Assembly (NCBI RefSeq): GCF_010093595.1 | Contig: NW_022985454.1 | Location: forward strand, 883,142-947,141 | Origin: Mytilinidion resinicola | Taxonomy: Eukaryota > Ascomycota > Dothideomycetes > Mytilinidiales > Mytilinidiaceae | Length of the DNA stretch: 64,000 bases | Direction: 5' to 3' | Shown: one piece after another, positions 1,188 to 27,690 of the stretch | Layout of the letters: each line of letters begins with the position of its first letter | Numbering within the stretch: the first letter of the stretch is position 1 | Translations under genes and position numbers: made by a program | The notes under the pieces: model-generated | What the model was told of the DNA's origin: nothing | The model's input: the letters and a program-made list of their open reading frames with translations, nothing else | The model's database searches: none

Positions 1188-1680
1188 TTAGAGCAAACAC
1201 ACGTATACCGCCATCCGCCTTACATCATCTGCGAATTCCTTCAAGCAGTACATGCGCATCACTCCGGACTGATGATCAGTACAATCGTGTACCAGGCCAA
1301 TGTGTCTTCGCTCATCAGCAAGGTTGTGACCACACAGGCATGCACCATTCGCGCTGTCTGCACATGTGCATCTCCCGGTGTAGACGAAGTCAATGCGAGT
1401 GGGAAGCACGTCGTGCTTGTAGGTGAGGTGGCAGACATCGTCATAATGCTGGCACTTTACGGACACATCAGATCAGCGTTAGCCGTGTTTATCGATAGGA
1501 GTACTTACCCAGCAAAGGAAATTCTAAAACATCTTCCAGGCACTCCACACGTGTGGCGTGAGACATCGCGTGGGCAGTACTGATCCAAGCTCGCCGGCGG
1601 AGAAGTCAGAATATGGGAAGAATCATGACTGGTGAGAGGTTGAGTGGCGGGAGAGAGAAGAGACATCATTTTGGATTTGG
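1188..1680 (-). pseudogene. relic F: last two exons of the zinc-finger family
   Basis: On the minus strand, the frame around 1510-1600 reads LDQYCPRDVSRHTCGVPG, which aligns with LDQYCPCTLSGHLCGMVG of gene B. A canonical donor (GTAAGT, about 1507) follows, and a 3' block at about 1250-1450 reads CQHYDDVCHL, then YTGRCTCADSANGACLCGHN and DERRHIGLVHDC. This aligns with the final CCCH exon of gene A (YTQPC, C-DFGHD, ERRRLLGPGHPC). Damage: the second Cys of CPC is Arg, the first CCCH Cys is missing, the two exons do not join in phase, and the usual stop is lost. It lies directly 3' of gene A in the same orientation, so it looks like the tail of a former tandem copy. No coiled-coil or first zinc module is seen. 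Confidence 0.6.
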
Positions 1681-1851
1681 CTAGTGTACATACATCAAAG
1701 GCTCAGTCCTCATAAGAAAAAAGAGCATTCGAGCGAAGGACCCAGAACTGGATTTTATGCAAAAGCCAATTTTCACCCCACAAACTACACAACCTACCTC
1801 TTAGTATAGAGGAAGGCCAATTCCGAGCTTACGGCCATGCGTGCAGCCAAA

Positions 1852-3818
1852 CTAATGGTGCTTGCAAGGGTGTCCCGGGCCAAGGAGGCGTCTCCTCTCT
1901 TCAACACGGTCATGACCAAAATCGCACTTTCCGTCAAGTATATCACCGCATGGCTGCGTGTATAGGTAATTCAAACAGGTCGGACGCAAGCCGCGTTGCT
2001 CGAGAGGGTGGCAGTCGTCTCCATAGCGACGTTGCTACTTGGGTTAGCCCACGAAGATCTCGTTTTCAGGGGAAGTACTCACAAGACATAGCTTTGGAAG
2101 CGAACATCCATCAGACAGAACTTTACACTCATGCCCGCAGACGTTGCAGGGGCAGACCTCTTCCACGTCTGTCGCCTCTGGAATTGCCAGCTTCGGAGTG
2201 CTAGACGTTCTGACTGGGATGCTGCTTAAGACAGTCGAAGAACTACGCGTGTACATATCTTGGTGTTGATTCCCTGGGCCCATCACATCTCCGGGGGAGG
2301 ATTGCTGTTGTTCCGAATCGGACCCGTGACGATTGCCACCTCCGACAGTCCGCTTATTTGTTGAAGACTCCGAGTCTTCAACAGCCGAAGCACGTTTCTT
2401 CCAGCCCACCAAGGTCGACTTATACGAGACTAATTCGATATCAGAGGCGTTCCTTACATGTGCCTCGGGCATTAAAACGTACCTTTATATCCCTCTCGTC
2501 CATTCCCTTTGATACTGTCGACCTCAGCAGGGGGCAGTTCACGCTGATTAGACAACCGCAAAGTGGCACTCTGATTTGGGACCCCGTTTGCTCCATGGTC
2601 CACGGATTCCAAAGCCTCATGCCACTTGTCGTTGTGCTGCGCTGCAATATGCCCCCTAAACCCAGCCTCGCCCTTGAACGGGGATATGTTAGTTTCGGAT
2701 CGCTTAATCGAGTTACAGCCGCATATGCTGCATGAAAGTTCCACGTAGGTGCCATCAGCTCGCTTGATGATGGTGGGGAAGATTGTCGTCAAGAGTTGGT
2801 CTGCTGAAGCCATCTCTCCACCCAAACGCTGTCTCCTTACAGGAGTTCTCTCCATATAGTCGTCATCATCTCGCGACGAAGAGTCGTCTTCGCCATTCTC
2901 CAAAGCTTCTTGCTCGCCCGATCCATATTCTAGAGGCCCATTTTCGTTATCGTTGTTGATCAAGGGATTGTCAGAATTAGTTCCGGCTGTTAACTGCATA
3001 GTGGGAGCACCAGTAAGACCCTTCAACAAGGCGTTGATTTCGTCGGCGGTGAAATCCCGATTTTTGCAAGATTCCACCACTTCGTAGGTATCCATCTTCA
3101 ACCTATGCTTTGCCGACAGGTGGCGTTTGAAGCCATCTATGCCTTTGAGATACTCGTAAGGAACGTCGCGGTGAGAGGCTGCGTTCGTCTGGCAGATACC
3201 ACAAGATAGCTCAACCCACGTACCTCCCTCCAGCCGGACCACATGGGGATACTTCTCTAAGTAGGATAGGTAGCCTTTTTATTGAACGACCCCGATTTCA
3301 GTTCCTTATCGCGTACGCGAGTTGTCCTCGATGCATTCGCAAAAGCTGTGGCATCGTTCTGATCAAGGGGAGATCCTACTAGCGGATTGGACTGAACACT
3401 CGAGCGCAGCCCGCGTGTGACCTGGTTTCCAGTGGCCGAAGAGGTTTGCGCCTCTCCTGATCGCGGGGATTGGGAGGAGGGCGTGCTCTGATTTGCTGCA
3501 TGCGATGGGGTGGTGACGCAAAGGAACCGTTATTTGTCAGTAGGAAGAAAGAGCTCATGCTTGACGACTGGAGCGCTCGCAGTCGTTTGCGCGTAGTCTT
3601 TCGGACAACAATTAGAGAGCGAAAAGAAAAGATCTTGAGGAGATAGGAAAACTTACGAACTGCTTGGAGTCTGTGTTACCTATCTCTTCATTCACCCTCT
3701 TGAGGTCCTTCTGGAGTTTCTCTGCTTCTGCGACTTTCTCTTGCATTGATTGATGTAGCCTAGCAAGCTTACTATGCAGTGTAGCTGCTTCGTGGAGGCC
3801 GTCCGCCATGGTGGCCAT
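1852..3818 (-). CDS. zinc-finger-family gene A (possibly frameshifted)
   Basis: I do not recognise this as a named family; it shares its plan with genes B, C and D. Exon 1 (3657-3818) encodes 54 residues of charged coiled coil ending KQF. Intron 1 is probably 3598-3656. A Ser/Thr/Gln-rich stretch is followed by two modules: VELSCGIC...GFKRHLSAKH near 3110-3220 and VELSCSIC...GFRGHIAAQH near 2645-2745. Intron 2430-2482 precedes a Lys-rich linker and CPCNVCGHEC; intron 2035-2082 precedes the last exon with TCLNYLYTQPC, a CDFGHD block and C-terminal HPCKHH, giving C-x8-C-x7-C-x3-H. Two frame breaks remain unexplained: one after the exon-2 start and one near a T5 run at 3276-3280. Either small introns were missed or the gene is decaying. 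The zinc-binding role is inferred from Cys/His spacing. Confidence 0.65.
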
Positions 3819-5063
3819 TGACAGAGCCTGTCAGCTCTCAACAGCCTTGACGAAGGTAAGTGACAAAGTTGTGGTGACCGGAGAAACAGCAGATGTCGCC
3901 AAGAGAGAAAAAGTGGGGCAAAGGTGTGGCGGTGAATTGCCATGCAACACGCACACCGCCTTCTCCGCCGCCATCTACGGTGGCTCGACAGAAACTCGAA
4001 AGAGGTCAAAATCCACCTTCTTGAACAACGCTAAAACTCGTTAGGCCACCGCAGGCGGTTGCAGCTGGGTGTACACAAGCCCGAGTTAGACTGCGGAGGC
4101 AGAGTGGATCGTAGCTCCGGACGTATCAAAGGGCTACATAGTCCAGTATCAGGACTCCCATGCTCTTCTGCCACGGCTTGTGGTGGCCCAACACTCTTCC
4201 AGAGATCTGAAATAGGTGGAACTTCATCATGTTGAGCAAGTGCGAACCTCGCCAGGCTACCTCAAGCGGCCTCGGAGAAGTGTACACAGTTGGAAAAGGA
4301 TCATTGCTCCAGATTTTCAAAACTGGTTCAAGGCACCACAGACCGTGGCAGGTCCTCGGGCATAGATATTCGGCGAGGCAGTGAGGTGTCGCCGGAGGAA
4401 CGAAGAGGAAGACCTGAAAAGAGAGTTAGAACACCTCAGCAGAGTTGAGTATGATTTGAGGTTTGATGGAAATGAGGTGAGGAAAGTGGTCGTCACTTAC
4501 GCAAGTCGACGAATGTAGAGACTCTCATATCACCTCATGGATCAGGAGCAGATGAGGTCATAAGAGGAAGAAACTGTGTTGAGGTTTGTCTGTTGAGAAG
4601 GTGGGGAAGAGGAGGGAAGAGGAAGGAAGAAGCTTCGGTTTAGTTGTCAAGATATATAGAGTGCAAATAAACAATATTGTTCCGTATCTCTTCCAGGCAA
4701 CTATTGAATAGCTCTCCTCACCAGTGAAGTCCAGTAGGAACATGACTACCAATCAATATACCTCGAGTTCGTTATGATAGAGTCCAGTAGCTAATAAGAT
4801 TGGTCCGTATCCCCTCCGACCCCCAACCTACCAGCAAGACGCACAACCCTCACATACCATTGAAGTCTGGCGATGACAAAGAGCCCTGATAATACAAACC
4901 CTGGGCGGCCACGGAATAGCTCACAAGCTAAAGACTTTGGTCCGTATCCTTACGGTCCTCCAGACTACCAGTAAGACGGACAACACCCCATACCGGTAGT
5001 GTCTAGAATGACGAGGTTGCTTGCACCATCTCTAGATGGACTTTCAAAATACACTTACTTACT
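3819..5063. other. intergenic, no gene supported
   Basis: This is the upstream side of gene A and downstream side of gene B. Only short unsupported reading frames are present. The part from 4675 to 5015 holds the imperfect repeats listed separately. Confidence 0.5.
4675..5015. repeat. imperfect direct repeats built on TTGGTCCGTAT
   Basis: Two clear units (4799-4880 and 4937-5015) share TTGGTCCGTATCC, then CTACCAG, AAGACG-ACAAC and a CATACC block. A weaker unit starts near 4677 (TTGTTCCGTATCTC). Spacing is about 125-140 bp. In one plus frame the units read GPYP-PP-YQ, so a decayed coding repeat is possible, but no open gene remains. Confidence 0.5.
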
Positions 5064-7352
5064 TCAATGACTAGCATGACGATGCTCATACAACCGCCGC
5101 CGAACATCCTCATCCTCGTGATCATACGGACACCCCCTATCCCGCACCAAACACTCCCTTCCATTGACAACCGAGTAACACGTCATGCGAACATTACATT
5201 CATCGGCGATGACGCAATTGTTGTCGTGTTGGTAATTCTGGCACTAGCGTCAGCAGATAGCTTCAAGACAAGGAGAGAACCGCAGCACGGGCGACAAACC
5301 AGACATATCTTAACTTTGGCACACCCAACCATCCCGCACAGGTGGCCGGATAAGGTACAGGGACAATACTGGTCTAAGCAGCTAGACGGTGATGAAACGG
5401 GCGACGCTCGCGCCGCTACCTGGCCTTCGACGGCCGACAACATGGGGGATAAACTAACCACGATTTCATCGCCGAGCGTTTCTGAGCGATTGGGGGGAAA
5501 CAGGAAGTAAGAAGGCGGGGATTTACTGCCAAGTCTACACACATGGGAGCAAAAGTAAGCTTTGGAGTGCGTAAATGGACGACGATGGATATGTAGCCTT
5601 GATCCACTTACCTATGCGGAGCGCTCACGATCTCATTGTCCGGGCAGGGTCGTTTGCGGTCGCGATTGCGAGTACGAGGTAACTCGCGCGACGTAATCAC
5701 GCTATCATCATCGTCGTCTGTTGAGCGGGTGGTGTCCTCATCTCCCGAATCGTCAGGGTTGTCGTTGGTGCTTGTAGAGGTAATGCTCGGTTCTCTCTGT
5801 CGCTTCGGGCCTTGGGTTGGATTGAGCTTGACTGGTGGAGCATTAGAGGGTGTGAAAATAAAGTGTCGCATATGGACAACTTACCCTTGTAAGCGCTCGC
5901 CCCATGCTGCCTGATAGCCTGTAGTTGATTATTGGTCAAGATCTTCTGGATACATAAGGAGAGAATGGTATCATGCGCTGTCCCGTCTCGTCCCACAGCA
6001 TCTTTCTTCTCGTGCCATTCCTCTTTATGAGTCTGTCGGAGGTGTTGCCGGAAACCTACCCATTTTCTGTATGGACGAAGCGTGTATGGTGTTCGGTGCT
6101 TGACCCAACTATTCGCATTGCAAAGTTTGCATCTGAGTTCAACATAGTTGCCGTCGGAGCACCTGACGACAGTTGGCAACTCTGGGAAATCGTCCACCGG
6201 GGCCTGCACTCTAGTAATCTTCGGCTTTTCGATTTGTAGGTAGGTCGGATCTCTCATCTTCATCTCAGGGGCGCCGGGTAGGCCCAATTCCAGTGCCTCA
6301 ACCTGGGCTCCCGAGAGGTCCCGCACCTTGCAACGCGAGATTACATCAGAGTAGTCTAGATGCGTTGTAATCCCATGGCCTTGGAGATGGCGTAGAAAAC
6401 CTTTCAGCCCTTTTATGAAGTCTGGCCCGAAGCAATTCCTGCCGCAGGTGCCGCATGCAAGCTCGATCCAGCTTCCGTCGTGGAGGCAAACAACATGCGG
6501 ATACTTGGGCAAATAGTTCCGCCGGCCACTAATTTCTAGAAAAGAATAGCGATGGTCCTCGTTTGAGGACTGAGAGTAATCAGGATCGTGCTCTCCTTCC
6601 AGATCGGCTGAGTCGTCCGAGCCGCCATCTCTGTCACCAAGATCGATTACTTCATGTATACCGAGGTTAGCTACTGGAGCTCCTGAACGATATTCCGGCG
6701 GCATATTTGCAGTTCTCGTTGGTATTTCGGCAGCTCTGTAGGCTGCTGATGGTATAGAGCCGCCGACATTTCGCGTGGAGGAAGAAGCCATAAAAGACAA
6801 TGGTGATGAGGCCTGTGACACTTGAACCCGGCCACTTTCGACGTCCGACTCAGCCTGCGATCGAAGACTTGGAGCCTGCCGCCTCTCATCCATTGGAGCT
6901 ACTCGGTATGGCCGGCTTCCTAGCCGATCCGAAGCGCCTTGTGCTCGTGTTGAACGATCCGTTCTTGTTTGTGTGTGGCGGAAATCGTCGTTCTCGATTC
7001 GCAGCTGTGTCTCCGATTGCTTCGAGGTGGAATTTTTGAGGCTGTGATAGGACGCTAGCAGCGAAGAACGAAGAGTTGAGTCTCGAATTGCGCGTTCTTG
7101 CTTTCTGACTGCCTACAGCGGAGATTAGTTCACGGTTTACTGCGCGGCTACTGTGGAGAAACTTACAACTTTGGTACCAAATTTCTCTTCTTCGACCTTC
7201 TCCAATTCATCCTCCAACTCATCTAGTCTTTCTTGAAGACACAAGGATTGTTCCTGTAGCTTCCGAAGTTCGCTGGACTTGCGCTCATGTAAACTCTTCA
7301 AGCTGGCGTGTTGGTCACGGAGGAGATTGAGCTGGCCTGAAGGGTCTGCCAT
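5064..7352 (-). CDS. zinc-finger-family gene B, 682 aa
   Basis: Unknown family, and the best preserved long member here. Exons 7167-7352, 5885-7112, 5612-5831, 5300-5534 and 5064-5243 join in phase to 682 codons plus stop. Exon 1 is a Leu/Glu/Lys coiled coil (62 aa) ending EEEKFGTKV. The second exon opens AVRKQERAIR, matching ALRKQLREVR of gene C. Module 1 has C282/C285/H304/H308 (ELACGTC...GFLRHLQGH). Module 2 has C390/C393/H419/H424 (ELRCKLC...GFRQHLRQTH). A basic and Asp-rich linker follows, then YCPCTLSGHLCGMVGC. The last exon carries a CCCH motif at C645, C654, C661 and H665 and ends HRHASH. The 5244-5299 intron uses the weaker donor GTTTGT. A nuclear nucleic-acid-binding role is an inference from the finger-like spacing and the basic linker. 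Confidence 0.8.
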
Positions 7353-7654
7353 GGTGTAGGACGCAAGGTAGTTCGTAGTAACGACAATGATCAATGAAAG
7401 AGGCACTAGAGGAAAACAGGCAAGCAGATGTGCCAGAGAAATTGAATTGGACTGAAAGATAGGTAGATGGGAGCAAACCTGTAATGGACACTCAGTCATG
7501 CGCGTTGCCGTCTGCTCGTACACCGCTCCTCGACTAAGGCAAGACACGGCTAACGACTTCATGGTGGCAAAAACCAATTCAGTTTCAGGCAAACCGAAGA
7601 CAACTCGGGGTAAGCCAAGGTTAGTCTTGAAATGAAGGTGCAGGTATATCAGCC

Positions 7655-7978
7655 CACGTGACATAGTCTCAGGAGCGTGGACGGAAGATGGCTGAACAGA
7701 CAGGGGCGAAGAGTATAATGTTTGGGGGAAGCATATCAATAACTCGAGAGCGAGAAACTAGAAATTGGCAGAGTGGAGACGGTGAAGATGCACCTTACGG
7801 TACGGAAACCGATATGTAGTGATCACCAACAGACCCATAGATGGTTTGATCAATCAACTCCATTGATGCAACTCTCGGCACCAACCCAACACGCTCGCTA
7901 CCAGCGCCCGAAACTCCAACGCAAACCTTTACATGACGATGGACCTATAAACCACTTACCGATCCGTCATCACGTGAC
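7655..7978. promoter_or_regulatory. two CACGTGAC elements upstream of gene B
   Basis: CACGTGAC occurs at 7655-7662 and 7971-7978, about 300 and 620 bp upstream of the gene B start. The palindrome CACGTG is the core bound by bHLH factors such as Cbf1. Use here is an inference. The rest of 7353-8039 holds no supported gene. Confidence 0.25.
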
Positions 7979-8039
7979 TCGTGTCTCAGTCTTTGAACGG
8001 GCTCGCCCATCGTCGATATCCCACCAAAGACCGTTTGAC

Positions 8040-8537
8040 TCAGTCTTCAGTCGACTTCTCATCAGTCGCAGCCCCTACCCTGCCTGCCCTCCTCCTCTCC
8101 GACGCGTATTGAATCCCCCTCGCCGTCCACACTCCTACCACCACTAGTGCACCCATCACAACACACAAAACGCTCAGCGTGATCGCAACAACGGCTAGAC
8201 TCTGCAGCCATACCGACAGGGTGATTTTCGGTTCCCCAGTCGTGAGGATCGTGAATATAAACATCAGGAAATGGCCCATCCAAATCGCTATAAATGCGGG
8301 TCCAAACGTGTATTTGGCCATGAAGTCGATTTTGAGAATTCTGCCGGTGACGGCCATGGTGATAGCTGCAACCATCATTGATACCAGTAGGCCGGCAAAG
8401 AAGAGAATCGCCCAGGGGATGTAGAGGAGGATGTGGAGGATCCAGCTGAGGAGGAAGACGACTTTGGAGAGGGTGGCTTGTAGGGCGGCGCCAAGGTTGG
8501 TGGTGTCTGAAGGGGGGATTGCTATGGGAGGCGCCAT
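8040..8537 (-). CDS. four-helix membrane protein, 165 aa, unknown
   Basis: A single uninterrupted frame from ATG at 8537. The N-terminal ~25 residues are soluble, followed by two close hydrophobic segments (about residues 26-65), a third (about 80-100, PAFIAIWMGHFLMFIF) and a fourth (about 112-138, VVAITLSVLCVVMGALVVV). The C-terminal tail is Arg-rich then acidic (ASERRRAGR ... EKSTED) and is likely cytosolic. Hydrophobic periodicity and length argue for a real gene, and no motif identifies a family. It might be a small uncharacterised fungal integral membrane protein. Confidence 0.65.
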   Translation of the reverse strand: MAPPIAIPPSDTTNLGAALQATLSKVVFLLSWILHILLYIPWAILFFAGLLVSMMVAAITMAVTGRILKIDFMAKYTFGPAFIAIWMGHFLMFIFTILTTGEPKITLSVWLQSLAVVAITLSVLCVVMGALVVVGVWTARGIQYASERRRAGRVGAATDEKSTED

Positions 8538-9480
8538 GATGAAGGATCGATTGTGGAGATGGGTTAGAGTTGAGAAAAGGATGGAGGTTGGTAGTTATGA
8601 GACGGAAGGTTTCCGGTGAAGATATGTAGACTGATGTCAGTTGAGGGGATCCCTGCAGCTGCGCTTCGCAGGATTTGGCCCCCAACGAGGCTCTACCTTC
8701 ATTTCCTCAGGATGGCTAAGGCCATACCTACCTAAGGTACCACTGCCCTAGCCACTCACGCGGGGCATGAAAAGGGTGGCACTCTACTATACACACTATT
8801 TCTGTGCTTGTGTACGCTTGTTTACCGCCGCTTGAGGTTCTCCAGTATGCCATTGTTATTCAAGAGATACCAGCTTTGGCAAGCCTGATAGCTCTCCGGG
8901 TCACCTCAGACGGTGTTGAACTAGTTGAATGTGCCACTTCTTTCCCGCCTACCTAGCCACTGTCCAGCCTCAATGGCAAGTAGGTGCCTAAACGTATCTG
9001 ATGGTAGTTCGACGGAGTGATTAGAATACGGTGGGGTCGTTTCTGCCTTGTTGCCTGAACGAAGAATACTCACTAATCTCACTAACTACCTTGATGTATT
9101 AAGTTGACTTTACTTCGTACCTAACGAAGCGCTCCGAAAGCCTCAATATGAAATCACAAAGGAATCCCGCAGAACGATTATTCTATCTTCCAGTGGGAAT
9201 ATCTCGAAACAGGGACCAGGGGCACCCAAATCGAACGCAAATACAGCTCTCAAACTTGTTTCTCAACCCTGACCTCACCTATAAGTGCTACCTGATTCAA
9301 CCAGCGGTCACAGCAGTCATTCGCGATACCCGAGCCATCCCCGCATCTCCTCCAGCCTTGCCCGAGGCATCCATAACGCCGTAATCCCCACTCCACATAG
9401 CTCAACCTTCAAAGACATCATCAAACCGCGCGGTCAGCTTACCACCGAGAGAACCCCATAAAGAGCTCCAAAAACCACGC
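8538..9480. other. intergenic, nothing supported
   Basis: Shared upstream region of the minus-strand membrane gene and the plus-strand alcohol dehydrogenase. No open frame with recognisable content. Confidence 0.5.
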
Positions 9481-10797
9481 ATGTCGGTGAAGCTCGGTAT
9501 CCCCATCACCCTCGCAACTAGAATCGCGCAACCAGCTGTATTAAGAAGTTTCAGTCTCAATTGCGTCATCCACACCCCATCTTTCCCCAGCCTCAGAAAA
9601 AATACTAACATCTCGTTTCCAATTCTATCTACACGAACTCTACACACCAAACCCAAAATGACCGAATCCACCACCTCCCCCCTCTCCGGCCTCTACACCC
9701 CCACCCAACTCGCCCGCCTCTATTACGGCCCCGGCTCCGTGGCCAAACACCTCCTCTCCACCCTCCCCTCGCCCACCTCCAAAGCCTTCATCATCACCGG
9801 AAACTCCCTCGCCACAAAGACCCCCCTGGTCAAAGACGTCGAACAACTCCTCTCCCCCACCCACCACGCCGGCACCTTCTCCAACATCCGCGAACACGCG
9901 CCCATCGCCCAGCTCGACGAAGCCACCGAGCTAGTCGCCAAGGACTCAACCATCGACACGGTGATCAGCATAGGCGGCGGCTCCCCCATCGACTCGGCCA
10001 AAGCTATCTCCCACCGCACGCACGCGCGCACGGGGAAGTGGCTGTTCCACATCGCCATCCCCACCACCCTCTCCGCGGGGGAGTGCACCTACGCGGCCGG
10101 CTACACCGAGTCCTCGGGGGTGAAAACCGGCGTCAGCGACGTGCACCTCGCGCCCTCGGTCGTCATCTACGACGCGAGCTTCGCGCAGCACACGCCGCCT
10201 ACCTTATTCCTGTCGACAGGCCTGCGCGCGCTCGACCACGCGGTCGAGCTGCTCTACCACGAGACCATCAGCGAAGTGCCCGGGCGGGTCATGTGCCTGA
10301 ACGCCGCCGCTGCTCTGTTCAAGGGCCTCCCGCTGTATAAACACGACCCAGGGGACGTGGACACGATCACGCGGCTGCAGCTCGCGGCGTTCGAGAGCCT
10401 AGGGTTCCGCGGCACGAACGTCAAGGGCGGCATCGGGCTGAGCCATTCGCTGGGATACGCGCTGGGCAGCCCGTACGGGATCCCGCACGGCATCACCAGC
10501 TGCCTGACGCTGGGGCATGTGGTGAAGCTGAAGGCGGGGGATCCGGCGGCGGCGAGGGAGGTGGCGCGGGTGCTGCCGTTTGTTGGGGGCGTGGCGAGTG
10601 GGGATGAGAGGAGGGATGCGGAGGAGGTCGGGGAGAGAATTTTGGACCTTGTGAGAGGGTTGGGGTTGAAAAAGACGCTGGGGGAGTATGGGGTGGGCGA
10701 GGACCAGGTTGGGGTGATTGTGAAGAGGGCGACGGGCGGGTTGGAGGAGGGGGAGGTGTTTGATAGGGTTGCGCAATTGGTGAGGGGGTTGTGGTGA
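9481..10797 (+). CDS. iron-type alcohol dehydrogenase / maleylacetate-reductase-like
   Basis: A single-exon frame of 438 codons. The dehydroquinate-synthase-like fold is shown by YYGPGSV near residue 82, SIGGGSPIDSAKA (about 163-175, nucleotide binding), PTTLSAGE (about 194), and the metal-region segments LDHAVE (about 251), GLSHSLGYALG and IPHG. This resembles the maleylacetate reductase branch that reduces maleylacetate in aromatic catabolism, or a related NAD(P)H-dependent reductase. At the position four residues before the first metal His, where this superfamily usually has Asp or Asn, there is Arg, so metal use is uncertain. Two starts are possible: ATG 9481 adds about 59 Ser/Arg-rich, acid-free residues like a mitochondrial presequence, while ATG 9658 has the better context (CCAAAATGACC) and gives a cytosolic form. 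Third positions are strongly G/C biased compared with the neighbours. Confidence 0.85.
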   Translation: MSVKLGIPITLATRIAQPAVLRSFSLNCVIHTPSFPSLRKNTNISFPILSTRTLHTKPKMTESTTSPLSGLYTPTQLARLYYGPGSVAKHLLSTLPSPTSKAFIITGNSLATKTPLVKDVEQLLSPTHHAGTFSNIREHAPIAQLDEATELVAKDSTIDTVISIGGGSPIDSAKAISHRTHARTGKWLFHIAIPTTLSAGECTYAAGYTESSGVKTGVSDVHLAPSVVIYDASFAQHTPPTLFLSTGLRALDHAVELLYHETISEVPGRVMCLNAAAALFKGLPLYKHDPGDVDTITRLQLAAFESLGFRGTNVKGGIGLSHSLGYALGSPYGIPHGITSCLTLGHVVKLKAGDPAAAREVARVLPFVGGVASGDERRDAEEVGERILDLVRGLGLKKTLGEYGVGEDQVGVIVKRATGGLEEGEVFDRVAQLVRGLW

Positions 10798-10869
10798 GTG
10801 ATGGGGGGGGGGAAGGGATGGCGATAGTACTTCGTACCACGGAACGAAGACCCTGACAGGCTAAGCTTA

Positions 10870-11106
10870 ATTTACAACTTGCAAACCTTCACATTCAATC
10901 TCTAGATAGCCCAGGGTGGTCTTCCATTGGTGTCTACACTGTCAAAACACACGTTGACTACCTCTGATTTCATACGTCCGTGGAAAAGAGTGAAGAGATG
11001 GTAGTCACATGATCGAGGTCTGATTTACAACGTGTAAACTTTGACATTCACTTTCTAGAGAGTCTAGATAGCCCAGGGGTGTCTTGCATCGGTATCTACA
11101 CTGCCA
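10870..11106. repeat. two-copy direct repeat, about 75-84 bp
   Basis: 10870-10944 and 11023-11106 share ATTTACAAC-TG-AAAC, ACATTCA, TCTAGATAGCCCAGG and TCTACACTG, with one 9-10 bp indel (extra AGAGAGTC in the second copy). No coding sense is seen. Confidence 0.6.
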
Positions 11107-16150: not shown

Positions 16151-16167
16151 GTGTGTGTGTGTGTGTG
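16151..16167 (+). repeat. (GT)n microsatellite
   Basis: Uninterrupted GT dinucleotides, about 8.5 units. Confidence 0.9.
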
Positions 16168-16335
16168 AAGGATGGGGTCACCAAACGGGCGTAGCGGGCG
16201 GGTTGTGTGCAGGCCAGCAGCCACGGAGTTCGTGCAGCCCTGTGGGATCGGGGAGGCGGTGTGGTTGGGTGGGTGTGGGATGGGGACGTGTGACGAAGGG
16301 AAGGGGGACCGCGAATACGGGGCGTGGGAGCATGG

Positions 16336-16357
16336 GGAGTGGAGTGGAGTGGAGTGA
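16336..16357 (+). repeat. (GGAGT)4 pentanucleotide repeat
   Basis: Four consecutive GGAGT units within G-rich DNA. Confidence 0.85.
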
Positions 16358-17510: not shown

Positions 17511-18278
17511 TTACGACTCACCGATCTCCTCAATCACCCTTTTTAGGTTCTGGATGTCATGCGCAAACCTCCCAAGGAACAAACCATCCACCCCGTCCCT
17601 TATCTTCCCAAAAGTCCCCGGTCCCGCACTCCCTCCATAAACTATTCTCGTAACCCCTTTCCTCCCCTTCGCCATCGCTCTGATCTCCTTTGTCACGTTA
17701 ACAACATGATCCGCGTCCGCAGGCTCCTTCGCTCCAATCGCCCACACCGGCTCATACGCCAGAATCACTTCAGCGTCCTCCGGAATCGCGGCTAAGACTG
17801 CTTCAACCTGCGTCCTACACTCCTCCACTGCCGCGCCCACCGCCGCCGAGGCTATGTTCCCATGCGTCCGCTCCCCAATACACACGAGCGGGATCAGCCC
17901 GTTCCGCGCCGCCGCACCCGCCTTCAGCGCAACCTGCGCGTCTGTCTCTTTGAATATTGCGCGTCGCTCTGCGTGGCCTATCTCAACGATGCGTGCGCCG
18001 GCTTGGAAGAGGGAGCGGGCTGAGACTTCGCCGGTGTATGCGCCGGCGTCTTCCCAGAAGCAGTCTTGCGCGCCGAGGATTATAGAGGAGGGTTGGAGAA
18101 TGCGGCCGGAGTCGGCGAGGGATATGAAATCGGGAATGACGAAGAGGTCGATGCGGTAGTTCCAGGCGAGGCCGTCGAGCTCGAGAACGCCTTGCACGTA
18201 GCGGAGGGTGGAGGAGAGGTCGTAGTACATTTTTAGGCTGACGCCGACGAGGCGGCGGAGTGGAGTGGAGGCGGTCAT
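17511..18278 (-). CDS. triosephosphate-isomerase-like enzyme
   Basis: A single exon of 255 codons, the usual TIM length. The TIM-barrel landmarks are present: the active-site Lys in SLKMYYD (about residue 16), the catalytic His in VEIGHAERR (about 101), the catalytic Glu in AYEPVWAIG (about 175), and the phosphate loop YGGSAGP near residue 215. The Asn that normally precedes the active-site Lys (NWKMN in glycolytic enzymes) is Ser here. This and the divergent N-terminus suggest a paralogue acting on another sugar phosphate, for example tetrulose phosphates as in the bacterial EryH/EryI group, rather than the glycolytic enzyme. The substrate assignment is an inference. It is likely cytosolic, as no targeting signal is seen. 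The neighbours give no pathway clue. Confidence 0.85.
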   Translation of the reverse strand: MTASTPLRRLVGVSLKMYYDLSSTLRYVQGVLELDGLAWNYRIDLFVIPDFISLADSGRILQPSSIILGAQDCFWEDAGAYTGEVSARSLFQAGARIVEIGHAERRAIFKETDAQVALKAGAAARNGLIPLVCIGERTHGNIASAAVGAAVEECRTQVEAVLAAIPEDAEVILAYEPVWAIGAKEPADADHVVNVTKEIRAMAKGRKGVTRIVYGGSAGPGTFGKIRDGVDGLFLGRFAHDIQNLKRVIEEIGES

Positions 18279-19065
18279 TATGGATATTTAGATGGGCTGG
18301 TAAGTACGGTGATGAATGGATCTTGTATCAATGCCTTGCTGCTGTTCAGTGCGTTGTGTTATTCTACGATATATGGTGTTTGAAAGTGACGATGATGGTG
18401 AGGAGTCCGGCACGCTGTTTCGGGCATCCCGACTCATCACGTGTTTTCACGAGGTCGGGGAACGGCGGCTCGTTCCAGGCACCCTGTCCACGGGAGCCAA
18501 TGAGTCTTGATGGCTGCTCATCGTCCCTGGACGCCGAAGATTGCGGTCATATTTATTCGACGTGGATGACAGGGCCAGCGCACCCCACACTTTGTAGGAC
18601 TTTTCCTGTCTTAGCGGGCCGACCGGCGTCATTCTTTGACCTCCGATTCAAACTCCGAAATCTCCCAACTCCAACACTACGACACAAACACCACCCATAT
18701 TCACCACAGACCCGCCCGTTCGCTCGATATTCGGACCAGCATCTGTGGTACATGCATCGGCAGCTTGCTGATCGTTGGGCTCGTGCGCGGTACTTTGGAT
18801 AGCTGGCGCCGGCAGACAGGCGGAAAGGTGCAGATCTGAGCAGTGGAAACCCCGGCGGAGTGCGAACGAACAGTGCTGCCCTATATCAGCTGTGCGGTAG
18901 GTAAGCTGACATGACACCGACTCCGATGAGTTGATACTCAACCACGTTCAAGACCAATTGGTGACTCATTTCATCTTTGCTAACTTGTCCCTCAACATCA
19001 TTCAGTAGCGTGGCAACTCTCCTTCACGTAGCCTCCACCACAATTCAACTTTCTCTCCATTCACA
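18279..19065. other. divergent intergenic region
   Basis: Lies between the minus-strand TIM-like gene and plus-strand MTHFR, so it holds both promoters. CACGTG occurs near 18439. No supported gene. Confidence 0.45.
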
Positions 19066-21067
19066 ATGCATATCTCTCAGATGCTGGAGCAGTCGCGGAG
19101 GAAGAACAAGGCGACATTCTCGTTCGAGTTCTTCCCTCCGAAGACAGCTCAGGTACGTCCGGCACTCTACAAGTTGGTTGAGCGAAATCTGATAGAATTT
19201 TAGGGTGTGCAAAATTTGTACGACCGTATGGACCGCATGCACAGCTTCGGGCCCGCCTTCATTGACATCACCTGGGGCGCTGGCGGCCGCATGGCACGCC
19301 TTACAAGCGATATGGTCAAGGTCGCCCAATCTGCGTACGGGCTCGAGACATGCATGCACCTTACATGCACGGACATGGAAAAATCGAAGATTGACGAGGC
19401 ACTGAAGGAAGCATACAAGGCGGGTTGCACAAACATCCTGGCTCTGCGAGGAGACCCTCCTCGGGAGAAGGAGAAGTGGGAGGCCACAGCTGGCGGTTTC
19501 CGCTACGCAAAGGACCTCGTCAAGTACATTCGTGACACCTATGGCAACCACTTCGATATCGGAGTCGCAGGGTACTCTGAAGGATGTGAAGACCAAGACG
19601 ACCATGAGCTTCTCCTGGACCATTTGAAGGAGAAGGTTGACGCCGGCGCTACCTTCATCGTCACGCAGATGTTCTATGACGTCGATATCTTCCTTGACTG
19701 GGTCGACAAGGTTCGAGCGAAAGGTGTGACCATCCCTATCATCCCCGGTATCATGCCAATCCATACCCATGCTGCTTTCATGAGGCGAGCCACATGGACA
19801 AAATGCAACATCCCGACCGCATGGACCAAGGCACTGGAGCCAATTAAGAACGATGACGCTCAAGTACGAGAGGTCGGAAAGACTCTTATTGCAGAGATGT
19901 GTCGCCGGCTTCTCGAAGCGGGCATTCTACATCTCCACTTCTACACTATGAACCTCGCCCAAACCACTCGTATGGTCCTAGAGGAGTTGGACTTGATGCC
20001 CGACATGGAATCCCCAATCGAAAAGCCTCTACCATGGCGGCCATCGCTTGGACTCAACCGCCGAGAGGAAAATGTGCGCCCCATCTTCTGGCGAAACAGG
20101 AACAGGTCCTACGTCGCTAGAACCCAGGACTGGGACGAATTCCCCAACGGTCGCTGGGGTGACGCTCGTTCTCCCGCGTTCGGTGAACTGGATGCGTACG
20201 GTGTCGGTCTCAAAGGTACCAATGAACAGAACATCAAGCTCTGGGGAAGCCCCACCTCGGTCAAGGACATTGCGAACCTCTTTGTTCGCTACATGAGCGG
20301 GAAGCTCGACAGTTTACCCTGGAGCGAAGCCCCCATCTCGAAGGAAGCTGAGAGCATTCAAGACGACCTTGTCAATCTCAACACCCGAGGCTTCCTTACC
20401 ATCAACTCCCAGCCTGCTGCGGATGGAGTCAAATCGTCCGACCCTGTTCTTGGATGGGGCCCTCACAATGGATACGTCTACCAGAAGGCCTACCTCGAGG
20501 TCTTTGTCTCGCCGGAGTACATTGCAGAGGTGATCACCAGAATCGAACGAGATCCTGATATCACGTACTACGCTGTCAACAAGTCTGGTGACCTCAAAAC
20601 GAATGCACCTGGAGATGGACCAAATGCTGTGACTTGGGGTGTATTCCCCGGTAAAGAGATCGTGCAACCTACCATTGTCGAGACCGTCAGCTTCCTCGCC
20701 TGGAAGGATGAATTCTTCAGACTTGGTCAAGATTGGGCAAATTGCTACAGTTCCGTCAGCCCGTCCCGTTACGTTGTCGAAGACCTCATGGATACATGGT
20801 ATCTTGTCAACATCGGTGAGTTTTAGTAAAATATTCCCTTCCTCTACGCCACATGTACTGATAGTTATCATAGTCCACAATGATTTCCACGTTCCGCACG
20901 GTATCTTCCCTCTGTTCAACGGACTTGAAGTTGAAGACATGGAAAAGCCTCTTCATTCGACTGGGATCGTAAATGGAGACGAAAAGCCCACCGAGTCATC
21001 AAAGCCTACTACGAATGGCGCAGCTGCTCATACTAACGGCGTCAATGGTCATGAACAAAAAAATTAG
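19066..21067 (+). CDS. methylenetetrahydrofolate reductase
   Basis: Exons 19066-19152, 19204-20815 and 20874-21067 join in phase to 630 residues, the normal eukaryotic length. The enzyme reduces 5,10-methylene-THF to 5-methyl-THF for methionine synthesis, using FAD. The N-terminal barrel shows FSFEFFPPKT (residues 18-27), FIDITWGAGG, MHLTCTDM, LALRGDPP, YSEGC, FIVTQMFYD and IPGIMPI. The C-terminal half (GRWGDARSPAFGEL, LWGSPTS, WGVFPGKEIVQPTIV, WADEF-like) is the regulatory domain that binds S-adenosylmethionine in eukaryotic enzymes. The tail after VPHGIFPLFNGLE is a low-complexity Glu/Ser/Asn extension. Fungi often carry two paralogues (Met12- and Met13-like), and I cannot tell which this is. 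It is cytosolic. Confidence 0.97.
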
Positions 21068-21795
21068 TACCATCTCGAAGATCGTGTGTCAATCTCTTCT
21101 CAAGACATTCAACATCTCTGTTAGTCTACCTTAATATGGCGTTTCTGGAATTTCTTCTTCGCTTCTTAGCATTTTCAAGGGCGGCGACCCTACGAATCGG
21201 TTGCATTCAACACGGGGGTCCCTTCGTCAACCTGAGGGGATAAAAGTTGTGATTTTTCACATATTGCATTGGCAGGCGTCTATTCAACCTTGACGGCTCA
21301 TGATGAACGGAGACATAAACAAAGTGCGTGGGAACGAGAAGGAGTGACGAGACGATCTTTTTGAGATACCCCATTTCAGCGCCCTCAACGGCGCTTGCTT
21401 TTCTTGAGGTAGAGCTATGTTAGTATTTTAATGGCTTGATGGATGGTGGAATGGAATGTGATGGTCGGATAGGTAGATTCCCGACGGTGAGAGATTTTGG
21501 ACAATCAAAATTATCCTCTCGTCCATCCCCTATCGATGTTAAATTTCCATATCTTGCAGTGTAACATGAGGTATGCCTTACTCGGTAGATCAGCAGCTAA
21601 GTTGTTCCGTTCCGATATTTTCACCTTTCATGAAGGATGATAGAACCCAAGTGAGATTCTTCACCTCCCTTCTACCTTCGCCTATCACGCCATTGCCGGT
21701 AGTCCTATCGCGCTAAGCGTGGCGCTAGTCTCCTTCACCCTCTCGCTAACCTTTATGTACTTCTTCTACTTCTTGTTCTTCTTCGCTCCTACACC
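21068..21795. other. intergenic, promoter side of gene C
   Basis: No gene supported. A pyrimidine-rich run (CTTCTTCTACTTCTTGTTCTTCTTC) precedes the gene C start, typical of fungal core promoters. Confidence 0.4.
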
Positions 21796-23805
21796 ATGTC
21801 GTCTACAAACCGCACTTACGACATGGCGGCCAACATGGATCCCGGCTGGTTTGAGCAAGAGCTAGCCAACCTAGATGGCATCAAGCGTCAGAAGATGGCT
21901 GAGTTGGAGGGACTGCTACAGGACACTGCTCGAAAGCAGATCCAACTTGAGGATGAGCTGGAAGCGCTGTCCTCCCGAGAATTTGTGAGTTAAACCCACC
22001 CCAATTCGCAGCGCCATACGGACCGGTAGCCTCAGTGGGGCCAGATCGCTGCCTTGCGGTTTTTTCATTTCCTCTTGGAGACCACCCCACGAGGTACCTC
22101 AGAGGGTGATGAGGGTGCTCAAGCGCGTTAGAGGAACTATCTGATTTGCGCTATGTCGTCTGCTTGGGTATCTATCGCGCTTCAATTCTAACTCTATTCC
22201 ACTTCTAGGCACTACGCAAGCAGCTTCGAGAGGTGCGCACCTCGTCGCTGACTTTGCACTCGACTAGCTTGTATGGCTCCGGCAGCGGTGAACCGTACCA
22301 CCAGCAGTACGACACGAATGGCGGATTCGCAACCTTGACACCACCTAATACGCCAGAGAAGCCCACTCATAGGAAGGGAAAGAAGAACAAGCAAACCGAG
22401 TTCCCCGTGGATGTTCATTTCCTTACCCGCAGCCAGCATGGGGCCTACCTTAAGGCCTTCGGAAGCATCGTGTATATGAAAGGCATCTGGCACGAACTGC
22501 GCTGCTACATCTGTGGCGGCAATACTGCCACGACCGTTCGTACCGGGAACTATATCAATGGCACCACAGGGATGAGAAAGCATTTGGTGGAATCTCACGA
22601 CCTGAAGGCCGCAGAAGCCTCAGAAGTGAACGGAAAGGGCTTGATTCTCGACGATGAGATTATCAGGTTATGCTCAGTCCGCCAATTATCTCCTGAGGCT
22701 ATCCGAGATCTATGCCACGGTATTGAAAAGATTAAGAGCCGCACTACGGACATGATCATTGCAGAGGAAGATACCAAACCAGTCAAGCTATTGGGCTCTG
22801 TTGATGGATTGCCAACGGTAGTCAGATACTCCGATGGTTCGATGATCGAAATGCGTTGCTGTCTATGCGGCACGAACTGTTATGGGTCATCCTCAAGTCT
22901 CAGATTCTACAAGGGCATCTCGGGATTCATCTCACATCTGCAAGGGGCGCATAGTCAATACTACAGTGACCTCGAGGATCCTATTCTGACTAGAAATGAA
23001 TGGACTGTGCAGATGTGCACGTATAGGAAGCTTACGCAGGAAGAGGTAGAGAAGATCAAAGTTGAAGGCCCGGGAGGATACAAAGGTATGAACGACTTTC
23101 GTCTTGAGCATTGGTTGCGACCGTAGACTAATCATTACTTAGTCGAGTACTTCGAAGATCCTGATAAGCCAAGCAAAGTTCAGGACTCCCCCGACAATAT
23201 GGAACCGGAACTCAATGCCTCTAATGACGGCAAAGCGACCGTTGGCGCTGTTAGGGGCAGAGGGGGCAGTGAAATCAACTCACCGCAGACTCGCCGCCAG
23301 TCAAAGAGACTACGCCTCAGCCTACCAGAGGACAATCCAGTTGTCAAGCAGTAAGTGTCCGATTTTCTTCCTCGCCGCGATGCTATCTCTTGTTTTACCT
23401 AAGCTAACACTGTACCAGCGCCCCCGATTTCGGCATTTCCCAAGGCGTGGATGAGGTCCAGACCTTCGAAGTACCTAGCTTCGACATGGACCCCTTCTTC
23501 CTATATTGCCCTTGCACACTATCGGGACACCTTTGCAGCGAAGATTGCATGAGAATCAAAGTGTGCACTGTAAGTCAAAGTTATATCAACTACCGAAGAT
23601 CGTATTTAATCACCATCGTTTGTAATAGCTCGAGAGTCACGGTATCCAGTGCGCTTTTCGCGACCACGTCGCCCGGCCTACCTGCCTCTCAATGATATTT
23701 GGGACCCAGTGTCCGGCGTACGAAACGGACAACTGCACTTACGGCCACGACGATATCGAAGTCAGACAGGAAATCTTTCATGGCCATGTTTGCAACCAAC
23801 ATTAG
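21796..23805 (+). CDS. zinc-finger-family gene C, 533 aa
   Basis: Unknown family, apparently intact. Exons 21796-21984, 22209-23085, 23143-23350, 23419-23569 and 23629-23805 join in phase to 533 residues. Exon 1 is a coiled coil (LEGLLQDTARKQIQLEDEL) ending SSREF. Exon 2 starts ALRKQLREVR. Module 1: C162/C165/H188/H193 (ELRCYIC...GMRKHLVESH). Module 2: C280/C283/H306/H311 (EMRCCLC...GFISHLQGAH). Each module is followed by a helix-like segment with a conserved Cys and R-x-L (CSVRQLSPEAI, CTYRKLTQEEV). Exon 3 is basic (RRQSKRLRL), exon 4 has YCPCTLSGHLCSEDC, and exon 5 has TCLSMIFGTQC-x7-C-x3-H and ends HVCNQH. It is the best reference model for the family here. Confidence 0.85.
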
Positions 23806-25274
23806 CGCACGCTTGCGGGCCTACGGATAGCGGCTAGGACCGAATCTGCAACTGGAAAGATCTTGGGTTGTAGCGACATCGCCTAGCAACGTATTAGGCT
23901 GATTAGGATCTTTGCTGTCTTGATATAGTTTGAGCCTGACGGTCTTACAAGGGATGAGTATGTCCGTGCCGGGTTATGTTGTTTGAGACAACGGGGTGGA
24001 AAGGTTCTATAGGTAACCTGTAATGAGAAATCTCATTCTCTCTAGGAATGTTCTTTCGAAGAATGCCATTTGACTATCCGGTGATGCTGCTCTTGAGATA
24101 TCGTTGAATGGGGAGCGGTCGGTCGCCCCGGCGTCCGAGATCCTGTTGCAAGCCGGGGCTTGATAGGGCTCTTGGATTTACCGAACTGTTCGTACGGGAC
24201 TGGCCGCCAGTGACCATTCCAGCAGTCGGTAGTCAGGTGGTTATCCTACTGCATCCACCAACACGACATCGCCGATAAGGTTCTAACGAAAATGCAGGTC
24301 TACCGTCTCAAAACTAGTGGCGGACTTGGCGCAGTAGTCGGGCGTTAGAAGCCTTGCGTACCATTTCCTACTCCCGCTGCACCCAACTTCTTTGAGAGTG
24401 ACGGAGAACCCAAACTCCGGCAATTGTAGGTGTTCGAATCATCCTGTTCACACGTCTTGTAAGGGAATAATAGGTTCGCCATGTGTGCAGAGGGAAACAT
24501 TGGCGCATCGAGGGTCTAGAAGCAGGGATTGAAGCGAGAATGTGATATATAACATGTCGGACTTCCCACTCCCCCCACCCAGCCTCTTTTCCCGGACAAT
24601 CCCTGGCGCCAATCTCTGAGAGCAACCGATCGCGGTTTATTCTACTCGCCCCCGAGCCCGCAAAGCTTGCTTCCTGCAAGCCACCCTCTGCAACAGGCCT
24701 TTCTCGGAGCAAAACACCGATCAGATGAGCGACCTGGACCTTGAGAAGCTTCTAATTATGGCATCCGGCCCTTGCAATAGCTCATACGGGAAGTGGATCG
24801 TCTAGTCGTGCTTCCACCACCGACGCGTTTGTCACATTGAAAAGCCACCTCGAGTCTACGCACCGTACGGACTTCCGCTACACGTAGGCAACTGTCTATA
24901 CAGTCCCTTCGGATTGGTCAACCCGCTAGCCTTCCGATAACTTTCGCCTTGCTATGTTACAGGAAGAGGTCGGCACTCGAGCCTACTGGTTCAAGTCAGC
25001 CCTTTAAGAGACTTGAGGCTTCGGTGATATTCGTCTTCGTTTCACTAACCATGGGATGTGCAGATGAAATAGTGCCTTCGTGCAGATGAGCAGTGACTCA
25101 TGTAAATATTACCTGTCACTTTTTCAAATCCAGCGCGTAGACGGGTACACTGGCGTTCCCCCCGACTTGAAGCCCTGGTACTCTAGCCTCCTCCTCGCTG
25201 GTCATCGCGTCTTGTCTTCTCTTCTACCAGGTATCTCTACGATCGATTGTCTATTAGACACTCTAACTTGCAAG
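23806..25274. other. intergenic between genes C and D
   Basis: About 1.5 kb. I looked for family fragments on both strands and saw none. The last ~200 bases are the probable leader of gene D. Confidence 0.4.
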
Positions 25275-27203
25275 ATGTCGGACACTAAGACCCAGTACAA
25301 TCCATTCGGCGGCCAACTCGCCGACCTTGACAAGTCTTTCGAGCAGAACTCAGCAGAGCTACAGAAGATACAAGTCGATACCGAACGGATCTCTGCTGAG
25401 CTCAAGAACCCAGAGAAACTGAAAGTGGACACGTTCTGCCGGGAAACAGAACTTGAGGAGGAATTGGACAAGATTGAAGAGGAAAAATTTGTAAGTCTAG
25501 TGGCGGCTATGTTGTGTTGAGATCAGTACTAACCGTGGATGGGAATATAGAATCTTGCCAAACGAAATCTTGTCAGTCAATCCACAATTTAGCACAGCGG
25601 CCGGCCTCTCACTAACTTTGGATTTTTCTCAGGACCTCAAAAGACTAGCGCGTGTGCATCGCAAATCTCTACTTCCAGACTACCAAAGCCTGGCGACTCC
25701 GCCTTCACAGCAGCCCAAGGAACAGGCTTCCCCAAGCTGTTTCGACGATATTACCCCACCGCGGTCCCCAGTTGCACCCACGCTTCCAACGGTAATGCCG
25801 TTGGTCACTTCGTTGGCAAGCAGAATCCGTGGCCGCCCAAACTCGCAGAAGGAAGCCCAATCGCCTGTTCAGAGTGTTCAGGATGAGTTGAAGCAACCCA
25901 CCATCAATCATGCCTCCCTCTCGGGAGCTGCTCGCAGTCCTATCCCCTCAAATCACCTTGGACTTCCCTATTCTGGTTCCGAAGATGACCTCGATGATTC
26001 TGGTGACGATTTCGGGTCAGAAGCACTGAAATCCCCCAAAAGAAGACGGTGGCCAGACCATATTTTTGGGGTCAAAACCGAACGCGGGACTACCTATCTG
26101 GAGAAATACTCGCACGTTACTCGGCTAGATGATGGAAGGTGGGTTGAATTGCGATGTGGCATATGCGGTGTGAACAGCGGCAGCGAGAACAATTTTTACA
26201 AAGGTTTGAACGGCTTCAAACGCCATTTCAGCTGGTTCCATCATATGGCAAACCTTGCAGATGACCAGGTCGTTGCTCACTGCAAAGTAGTACGGCACTT
26301 GTCTACTGACGAAGTCGACGCCCTTCGTCTCGGACAACCTGGTGCTCCATCCATGCGTAAAGTCAAGGCGAGCGCTGCCAACCAGACTGATGTCGTGCTG
26401 CGGCTTTTCCCAACCATCGTCAAGCTTTCGAACGGAAAATATGTCGAACTGAAATGCAACGTTAAGGGTTGCGACATCAATAGCACCAATAAAGGAGCGA
26501 ACGAGACGACCGAGTTCAAAGGACTGAATGGATTCGGAAGCCATATCAGACGATCTCACCCGGAGGAGTGGGAACTTGATGTGGACTTCGCCGCGTTTTC
26601 ACCTCGCAAGGAGACTCCCCATACAGATCGGATCTTGTCTTTCTGCAGCCAACGTGAATTGACTGACAGAGAAGTAGAAGCAATCAAGCAGCGTGGCAGA
26701 GAGGCATATAAGAGTAAGTTCGACGTGGTGTTTCTGTTCATCAAAAGTATATTCTAACCCTCAACCAGTTACCTGCAAAGCTGCTTCCTACAAGCGAAGG
26801 CGCAGGAGCAGAACTGTTCGCTCCCCGTCGGTCGACGAAAGTGCAGAGTCAGCCGGCGACATGGTGAGCGAGTACGAAGATTCAGATCGCGGAGGGGAAA
26901 TCAAACGTGCCCGCCGGAGCGGAGATGGGTTGTAAGTCCAAGTCGGAGCACCTTCTACCCGAACGACTTTCAACTAATCCCCCAAATAGTCTGCGAGACT
27001 CCTGTATCAAATCCTCACCCCCGGCGTCTACTATCGGTGTGCGAGACCAGATTACTGTGGATATGTCTCGGCAGAAGCCGGAGCCGACACAATATCAGTT
27101 CGAGGAGTACTGCGCATGTACCCTCTTAGGTCATCAATGCGAAACGGTCGGCTGCACGAATCTCAAGTTCCCACAGATGCCCTTCCTCCAGTCTTCCTAC
27201 TAA
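25275..27203 (+). CDS. zinc-finger-family gene D, 564 aa, lacks CCCH exon
   Basis: Unknown family. Exons 25275-25490, 25551-25571, 25633-26713, 26769-26931 and 26990-27203 join in phase to 564 residues. Exon 1 is a coiled coil ending EEEKF, and a seven-codon micro-exon (NLAKRNL) matches the start of exon 2 in the paralogues. A long Pro/Ser linker and an acidic patch (SEDDLDDSGDD) precede module 1 (VELRCGIC...GFKRHFSWFHH, about residue 253) and module 2 (ELKCNVKGC...GFGSHIRRSH, about 354). The later exons carry YKRRRRSR and YCACTLLGHQCETVGC, but the frame then runs FPQMPFLQSSY to a stop. The conserved Cys and the final CCCH exon of A, B and C are absent. A CCCH exon sits on the opposite strand 110 bp further on (relic E), so local rearrangement is likely. 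Confidence 0.78.
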
Positions 27204-27312
27204 TTGTGTCCGAGAGCACGAAGGCCGTTGAAGTTTCCCGTCGTGCTCACCACTACCGGGCTTGTGTAAGGTCTCTTAGTACCCTATCCTGGCATTGTCG
27301 CGGCAATTCCAG

Positions 27313-27690
27313 CTAGTGATGGGCGTGATTATGGTCGAGGTAGATCCGCCTCCTGTGATCTCCAGCGTCATGCCCATCTCGGCAGTCGCGTAGTACACAG
27401 TGTTGCCCGCGGGCGATCTTAATGCAGGTGGTTCGGATGGTGCAAATCTCACTTTTTCTCGCACATCCAATCGTGAGACGGTTGCTGTATAATATGCTCA
27501 TTACAGCACCTCGTCTGGACATCTCTTGGTCGGTTACTTTGGCTGGTTTTCCTCGGTCGATTTCCTCGGGGGTTTCAATTGGCGCTTTAGTTATGATCTC
27601 TATCTGGTCAGACTGCAGGCAATTCCAAAAAGCACACCTTCTCGGCTTCTGTAGTATTCGGTAGCACCAATACAGTATCTTTGGTGCACA
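27313..27690 (-). pseudogene. relic E: inverted CCCH exon of the family
   Basis: The minus-strand frame ending with TAG at 27313-27315 reads CTIRTTCIKIARGQHC, VLRDCRDGHDAGDHRRR and ends HNHAHH. It aligns with the last exon of gene B (CNVRMTCYSVVNGREC, RDRGC-YDHED, RRRLY, HASH) and keeps C-x8-C-x4-C-x3-H. The frame stays open upstream to about 27690 but shows no CPCTLSGHLC block, coiled coil or zinc module, and a plausible acceptor (TATACAG) is out of phase with the paralogues. It is therefore a fragment. It lies tail-to-tail with gene D, which lacks exactly this exon. Confidence 0.62.

Follow-up and report, generated by a model that had tools for sequence, protein, structure and literature searches.

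The spacing C-x7-8-C-x5-C-x3-H defines the CCCH zinc finger, and gene families without a name are frequent in fungi. Among the described systems closest to the genes analyzed here, the zf-BED domain is characterized by two conserved aromatic positions (PMC9296551), and BEAF-32, a protein of Drosophila insulators, is described as combining a DNA-binding BED finger with a self-association region that includes a putative leucine zipper and a BESS domain (PMC5021357). Here we analyze a zinc-module gene family represented by four long copies, genes A to D, in a 64,000-nucleotide stretch of the Mytilinidion resinicola genome (contig NW_022985454.1, positions 883,142 to 947,141 of the forward strand), which we refer to as the window. 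The defining unit of the family spans about 90 amino acids and follows the pattern ELxCxxCxxN...GFxxHLxxxH...CxxR, with two units in each of genes A to D. Our preferred reading, held with moderate confidence, is that these genes constitute a real protein-coding family of putative oligomeric nuclear DNA binders with paired BED/C2H2-like modules. The genome contains at least 26 copies of the module, which is conserved across two genera but is covered by none of the family models; with a proper profile, proteins that are now uncharacterized could be named and an apparently truncated public model of gene B exposed, and the family offers candidate DNA-binding proteins in Dothideomycetes.

The paired module and the genes that carry it

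Modules in the window were sought with a profile built from 12 modules, all of them outside the window, using the 1321 stop-to-stop reading frames of at least 30 residues as the test set and the same frames reversed as control. The profile retrieves all eight modules that the original prediction, made from the window's letters alone, had placed in genes A to D, at 45.5-77.0 bits, the next match in the window scoring 6.6 bits and the best reversed frame 6.0 bits (Table 1). Alignment of these eight modules with 12 from elsewhere in the genome reveals four invariant residues: both cysteines, the Asn three residues further along and the final His. The first His, the Glu and the CxxR Arg are each conserved in 19 of the 20 modules, the Leu in 18 and the CxxR Cys in 17. 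The C-x2-C spacing holds in 19/20 modules, module 2 of gene D being the exception, and ahead of the Cys pair are two positions that are each aromatic in 18/20. Structure prediction, proposed earlier as a check, was run with AlphaFold2 on D module 1 (26098-26376; model mf96850add342, mean predicted local distance difference test score 83.9, predicted template-modelling score 0.72) and yields a zinc-finger-like core with an alpha-beta-alpha extension. On the basis of this model, the module is predicted with fair confidence to adopt a BED/C2H2-like core (two strands, CxxC and a helix with HxxxH) followed by an alpha-beta-alpha element carrying CxxRxL.

Table 1 Coordinates of family genes, modules, relics and further module loci (window positions unless a contig is named)
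Feature	Position	Strand	Remarks
Gene A	1852..3818	-	Coil exon, module region, two tail exons; reading frame interrupted after the coil exon, ahead of module 1
Gene A coil exon	3657-3818	-	
Gene A open module region	2484-3275	-	
Gene A linker and CPCNVCGHEC exon	2083-2429	-	
Gene A CCCH-type last exon	1852-2034	-	
A module 1	3000..3260	-	77.0 bits, outside-window profile
A module 2	2484..2783	-	45.5 bits; Ser in place of CxxR cysteine
Gene B	5064..7352	-	Intact five-exon model, 682 amino acids, no stop
Gene B exons	7167-7352, 5885-7112, 5612-5831, 5300-5534, 5064-5243	-	
B module 1	6264..6512	-	Profile match
B module 2	5886..6185	-	Profile match
B exon with CPCTLSGHLC	5300..5534	-	
B CCCH-type last exon	5064..5243	-	End ..HRHASH*
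Gene C	21796..23805	+	Intact five-exon model, 533 amino acids, no stop
Gene C exons	21796-21984, 22209-23085, 23143-23350, 23419-23569, 23629-23805	+	
C module 1	22449..22736	+	Profile match
C module 2	22806..23084	+	Profile match
C exon with CPCTLSGHLC	23419..23569	+	
C CCCH-type last exon	23629..23805	+	End ..HVCNQH*
Gene D	25275..27203	+	Four exons, 557 amino acids
Gene D exons	25275-25490, 25633-26713, 26769-26931, 26990-27203	+	
D module 1	26098..26352	+	Profile match
D module 2	26401..26712	+	Profile match; C-x4-C
Relic E	1266..1585	-	Degraded copy of two tail exons, directly downstream of A
Relic F	27316..27465	-	Last-exon relic, strand opposite to D
Relic G	C18:880857 onward		2.2 kb before the window; tail-only, both tail exons, end HQCGNH
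Module loci, contig C18	near 414, 464, 474, 792, 822 kb		
Module loci, contig C24	near 535 kb, 562-564 kb		Two modules; three modules
Module loci, contig C9	near 73, 76, 80, 81.5, 83, 90, 212 kb		
Module locus, contig C16	near 135 kb		

Genes B and C carry, in order, a coil first exon, the two modules, a linker charged with runs of basic and acidic residues, a CPCT-type exon and a CCCH-type last exon. Their introns are all GT-AG, with phases 0/1/2/0 in both genes; the phases in D are 0/1/2. The original prediction had assigned this ordered set to all four long copies, and it is complete in B and C, whereas A is frame-broken and D lacks the CCCH last exon. Gene D ends instead in a short run-on after its CPCT-like motif; our model of it is identical to the public record BDZ99DRAFT_540405 across all 557 residues, and the record has the same end. 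Likewise, the exact motif CPCTLSGHLC belongs to B and C only, its counterparts reading CPCNVCGHEC in A, CACTLLGHQC in D and CPRDVSRHTC in the degraded relic E. Gene A had been counted among the long copies, but its frame shifts immediately ahead of module 1 (near 3275) and, by eye, again further upstream; inspection by eye for an extra intron that would explain the break revealed no convincing donor-acceptor pair, and a misassembled A homopolymer could be its cause. The public model for gene B, BDZ99DRAFT_524666, comprises exons 1-3 only and runs into intron 3, where it ends at a stop codon, so that the CPCT and CCCH exons of our model (window 5064-5534) are absent from it; it is apparently a truncated gene model.

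Copies elsewhere, relics and genomic neighbors

Searches beyond the window covered the whole M. resinicola assembly (47.1 Mb in 44 contigs, the window lying on contig C18), the queries being B and D plus three modules from outside the window, and the module profile serving as confirmation; only the best candidates were scored, so module and locus counts are lower bounds. The copies had been described as clustered within 27 kb, and A to D, E and F do lie there, but 18 further modules occur at 15 loci elsewhere, bringing the total to at least 26. Twelve of the 18 (nine loci), originally found by single-protein searches, are rows of the 20-row checking profile, and their match in that check therefore holds by construction. 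The six that are not rows (C18 near 414, 464 and 792 kb; C9 near 73, 76 and 90 kb) score 33.0-53.0 bits over their main piece, some of them being split or stop-bearing. A candidate at C35:353 kb was dropped for showing no profile match at E ≤ 0.1, and fragments on C9 and C16 of at most 13.0 bits were excluded from the count. Beside the 474-kb gene, an open reading frame (ORF) at about 475.6 kb of C18 (stretch L039:5606-6208) is coil-like and resembles the first exon; no module was traced to it.

Both proposed relics, E and F, are tail-derived by a shuffle test that used four tails, those of A, B and C and that of D's counterpart in Lophium mytilinum. Relic E has weak profile scores (last exon 18.0 bits, CPCT-like exon 12.3 bits), and the number of shuffles per 1000 reaching its real score is zero against the A or C tail, 75 against B and 300 against Lophium D; it is nearest the A tail (alignment score 97; C 57, B 36, Lophium D 34). 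Relic F scores 31.8 bits with the profile, and 0/1000 shuffles reach its score against each of the four tails. Its nearest tail is that of Lophium D (114; B 103, C 55, A 50), and one guess is that D's missing last exon survives here in inverted form. In one genome search with B's tail as query, the only tail exons detected outside the A-D cluster were those of relic G, with 34.5 bits for the CPCT exon and a weak 7.0 bits for the last exon; shuffles reaching its score number 4 (A), 88 (B), 10 (C) and 435 (Lophium D tail) per 1000. The tail pattern C-x8-C-x(4-7)-C-x3-H is present in all five tails tested (A, B, C, F and Lophium D); by eye, relics E and G do not present it whole.

About 1.4 kb ahead of relic G, and on its strand, there is an ORF with a HET domain (PF06985, E 4.7e-20). 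In Neurospora, one study reports that lineage-specific genes cluster with HET genes (PMC10684091), a pattern that counts for an alternative in which the modules serve as zinc domains for protein-protein contact or regulation and the copies diversify in self/non-self recognition beside HET-domain genes. We regard this alternative as decidedly unlikely. Among the neighbors scanned, only a single HET gene is nearby, and A to D themselves have metabolic and regulatory genes around them. A domain of the HET, NACHT or death-fold type was absent from every member scanned, and the modules are constrained rather than hypervariable. The defence role suggested for the family finds no support beyond this one HET-domain gene and the general link in Neurospora. 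In the stretch concerned (L069, C18:879000-883141), the HET-domain ORF occupies 2-463 and the next ORF, 865-1650, has no Pfam match and may form one gene with it. About 200 bases past ORF 865-1650, relic G's tail exons start, and the tail is possibly part of the HET gene.

Within the window, the A/B and C/D pairs are kept apart by unrelated genes (Fe-ADH, bZIP, TIM and MTHFR). A folate-related pair, MTHFR and a pterin-binding enzyme, flanks C and D (window 19204-20823 and 28135-29286). Window 407-742 and the C18 stretch L069:3911-4142 resemble parts of a protein kinase; Pfam reports nothing in 407-742 at E ≤ 0.01. At window 37754-39481, a 576-amino-acid ORF shows C2H2-like repeats by eye and has no Pfam match at E ≤ 0.01.

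Relatives, constraint and age

Relatives were sought among 5.8 billion proteins. The search with B returned one protein at E ≤ 0.001 among 4167 candidates, and a second and third search, which scored only the candidates sharing most words, returned four proteins among 7998 candidates and two among 7991 at E ≤ 10; all belong to Mytilinidiaceae. These searches leak: that with B missed Lophium BU16DRAFT_622924 (P0007), though BLASTP aligns it to B's record with 140 bits, and the third, with B among its query rows, did not return B's own record. Matches confined to Mytilinidiaceae are therefore no proof of absence in other fungi, and so of the lineage-specific status suggested in the original prediction; nor, with A or C never the sole query, do they establish that Lophium lacks counterparts of A, B and C. 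Sequence comparison has so far placed the family in two genera of Mytilinidiaceae. Its public members are named uncharacterized or hypothetical, with the exception of a UniRef 'SAE2-domain' label on P0002 (BDZ99DRAFT_540095), which finds no backing in Pfam even at E ≤ 10.

The L. mytilinum counterpart of gene D, BU16DRAFT_622924 (575 amino acids), is 48% identical to D by BLASTP and 56% over MAFFT-aligned columns. It shows the full architecture of coil, two modules, linker, CPC tail and CCCH end, with the complete tail YCPCSLSGHPC...RPTC...C...C...H...HNHTSH. The same species also has counterparts of two single-module genes. In Lophium, D and the 474-kb gene have their counterparts on contigs of equal reported size (1,448,612), which fits synteny with C18. 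These observations bear on the possibility that the family descends from a transposase BED finger, as a domesticated DNA-binding part or as a component of a non-autonomous element. Partial zf-BED similarity and the many dispersed copies speak for such an origin, which we nonetheless consider unlikely: the members scanned contain no transposase catalytic domain, the one match being an ISL3-type zinc ribbon below cut-off in P0004 (terminal repeats were not searched for), the genes have several introns with phases in common, and the existence of counterparts in two genera, two of those in Lophium being on the equal-size contigs, fits stable positions.

The module is the most conserved region in all three cross-genus pairs compared at the protein level. 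Between D and its Lophium counterpart, conservation reaches 66/90 in module 1 and 71/107 in module 2, as opposed to 42/79 in the coil, 36/88 in the linker, 7/13 between the modules, 46/89 in the charged linker and 10/21 in the CPC part. For the P0002/P0003 pair the values are 73/91 in the module, 74/153 before it and 5/10 after it, and for P0004/P0005 the difference is small (65/96; 150/243 before, 37/72 after). That the modules are the best-conserved part of the D/Lophium pair indicates purifying selection on them. Among A to D, the codon positions indicate constraint, position 2 differing least and position 3 most in 6/6 pairs.

The family had been thought fast-evolving, and the paralogues lend this little support. 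Amino-acid identity between A to D in the module region is 0.28-0.43; synonymous divergence (dS) is saturated, being not computable in 5/6 pairs and 3.2 for the A-D pair, and the ratio of nonsynonymous to synonymous divergence is unusable for that reason. A tree of 24 modules separates first-type from second-type modules (support 95/92) and pairs the two D modules with their own Lophium counterparts (97/91 and 98/92). C module 2 clusters with outside second-type modules and not with those of A, B or D (90/78), and C module 1 sits on a long branch in an unsure position. Repeat-induced point mutation was rejected as the source of the divergence: TpA/ApT is 0.66-0.78 in A to D and 0.77 in the window, and the second index 1.14-1.21 and 1.16, so that the genes carry no signature of it. 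Their GC content is ordinary. On these sequence grounds, the A-D duplications appear to be old, and the family to comprise constrained duplicates plus some decaying copies. It is very improbable, in our assessment, that most copies in the window are pseudogenes in decay, derived from a single functional gene, as the frame break in A, the lost last exon of D and the fragments E and F might suggest; B and C are intact over five exons, the codon-position constraint holds in every pair, and D is annotated and retains its similarity to Lophium over aligned columns.

Proposed role and comparison with known families

Under our preferred reading of the family as paired-module DNA binders, the N-terminal helix of about 90 residues would form a coiled-coil oligomer, basic patches would direct nuclear targeting, the paired modules would bind DNA, and the Cys/His tail might contact a partner or a nucleic acid (RNA or DNA). 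Of the seven public relatives, all but P0002 (6/7) have basic patches, scored as K[KR]x[KR] or four basic residues, a count made with no chance control. Zinc binding, oligomerisation, nuclear location, nucleic-acid binding and expression are what we infer for these proteins, and the nucleic-acid recognition put forward in the original prediction can reasonably be supposed. A bolder and doubtful proposal is that the module founds a zinc-domain superfamily, distinct from BED/C2H2 by its alpha-beta-alpha CxxR extension, which has radiated in Mytilinidiaceae to at least 19 loci, each with one, two or three modules, that serve together as a diversifying nuclear DNA-recognition repertoire; the KRAB and ZAD zinc-finger sets of animals offer the comparison for a repertoire of this kind.

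The claim that the family matches no named one stands in that no model spans the full module, but zf-BED matches the core in two readings. Among Pfam, NCBIfam and PADLOC models, none reaches beyond the zinc core or the coil; a search of the PDB with the module profile gave no convincing match (best E 0.6), and a literature search, with most subscription journals outside its reach, found nothing on the module family. The zf-BED model (PF02892) exceeds its gathering score of 20.6 in Lophium BU16DRAFT_622924 (21.6 bits, residues 197-228) and in the gene C exon-2 reading (24.4 bits). It falls below that score in A (15.6 bits) and full-length C (15.7 bits), and has no match in B, D or P0002-P0005.

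The tail resembles CCCH fingers (PF00642 and relatives) in its pattern C-x8-C-x(4-7)-C-x3-H, and differs from them in that it then ends in [CH]-x2-H and that no Pfam CCCH model passes its cut-off, the best reaching E 0.15 and 0.18, far below it. With BEAF-32, as presented in the accessible part of its description, the family shares only the plan of a BED-type finger joined to a self-association region; BEAF-32 has the reversed order, one finger per protein and a BESS domain, and the same text does not mention a Cys/His tail. The likeness to zf-BED itself comprises the C-x2-C ... H-x(3-5)-H core, the helix GxxxFxxHLxxxH and perhaps two aromatics before the Cys pair. The over-cut-off matches span profile positions 17-44 of 44 only, and the module aromatics lie outside the Pfam alignment, which misses the first 16 positions, so their correspondence to those of zf-BED is tentative. 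We describe the module as probably BED/C2H2-like with an extension, rather than as a proven BED member: to the zf-BED core it adds a C-terminal alpha-beta-alpha element with CxxRxL, an invariant Asn after the Cys pair and a tandem arrangement.
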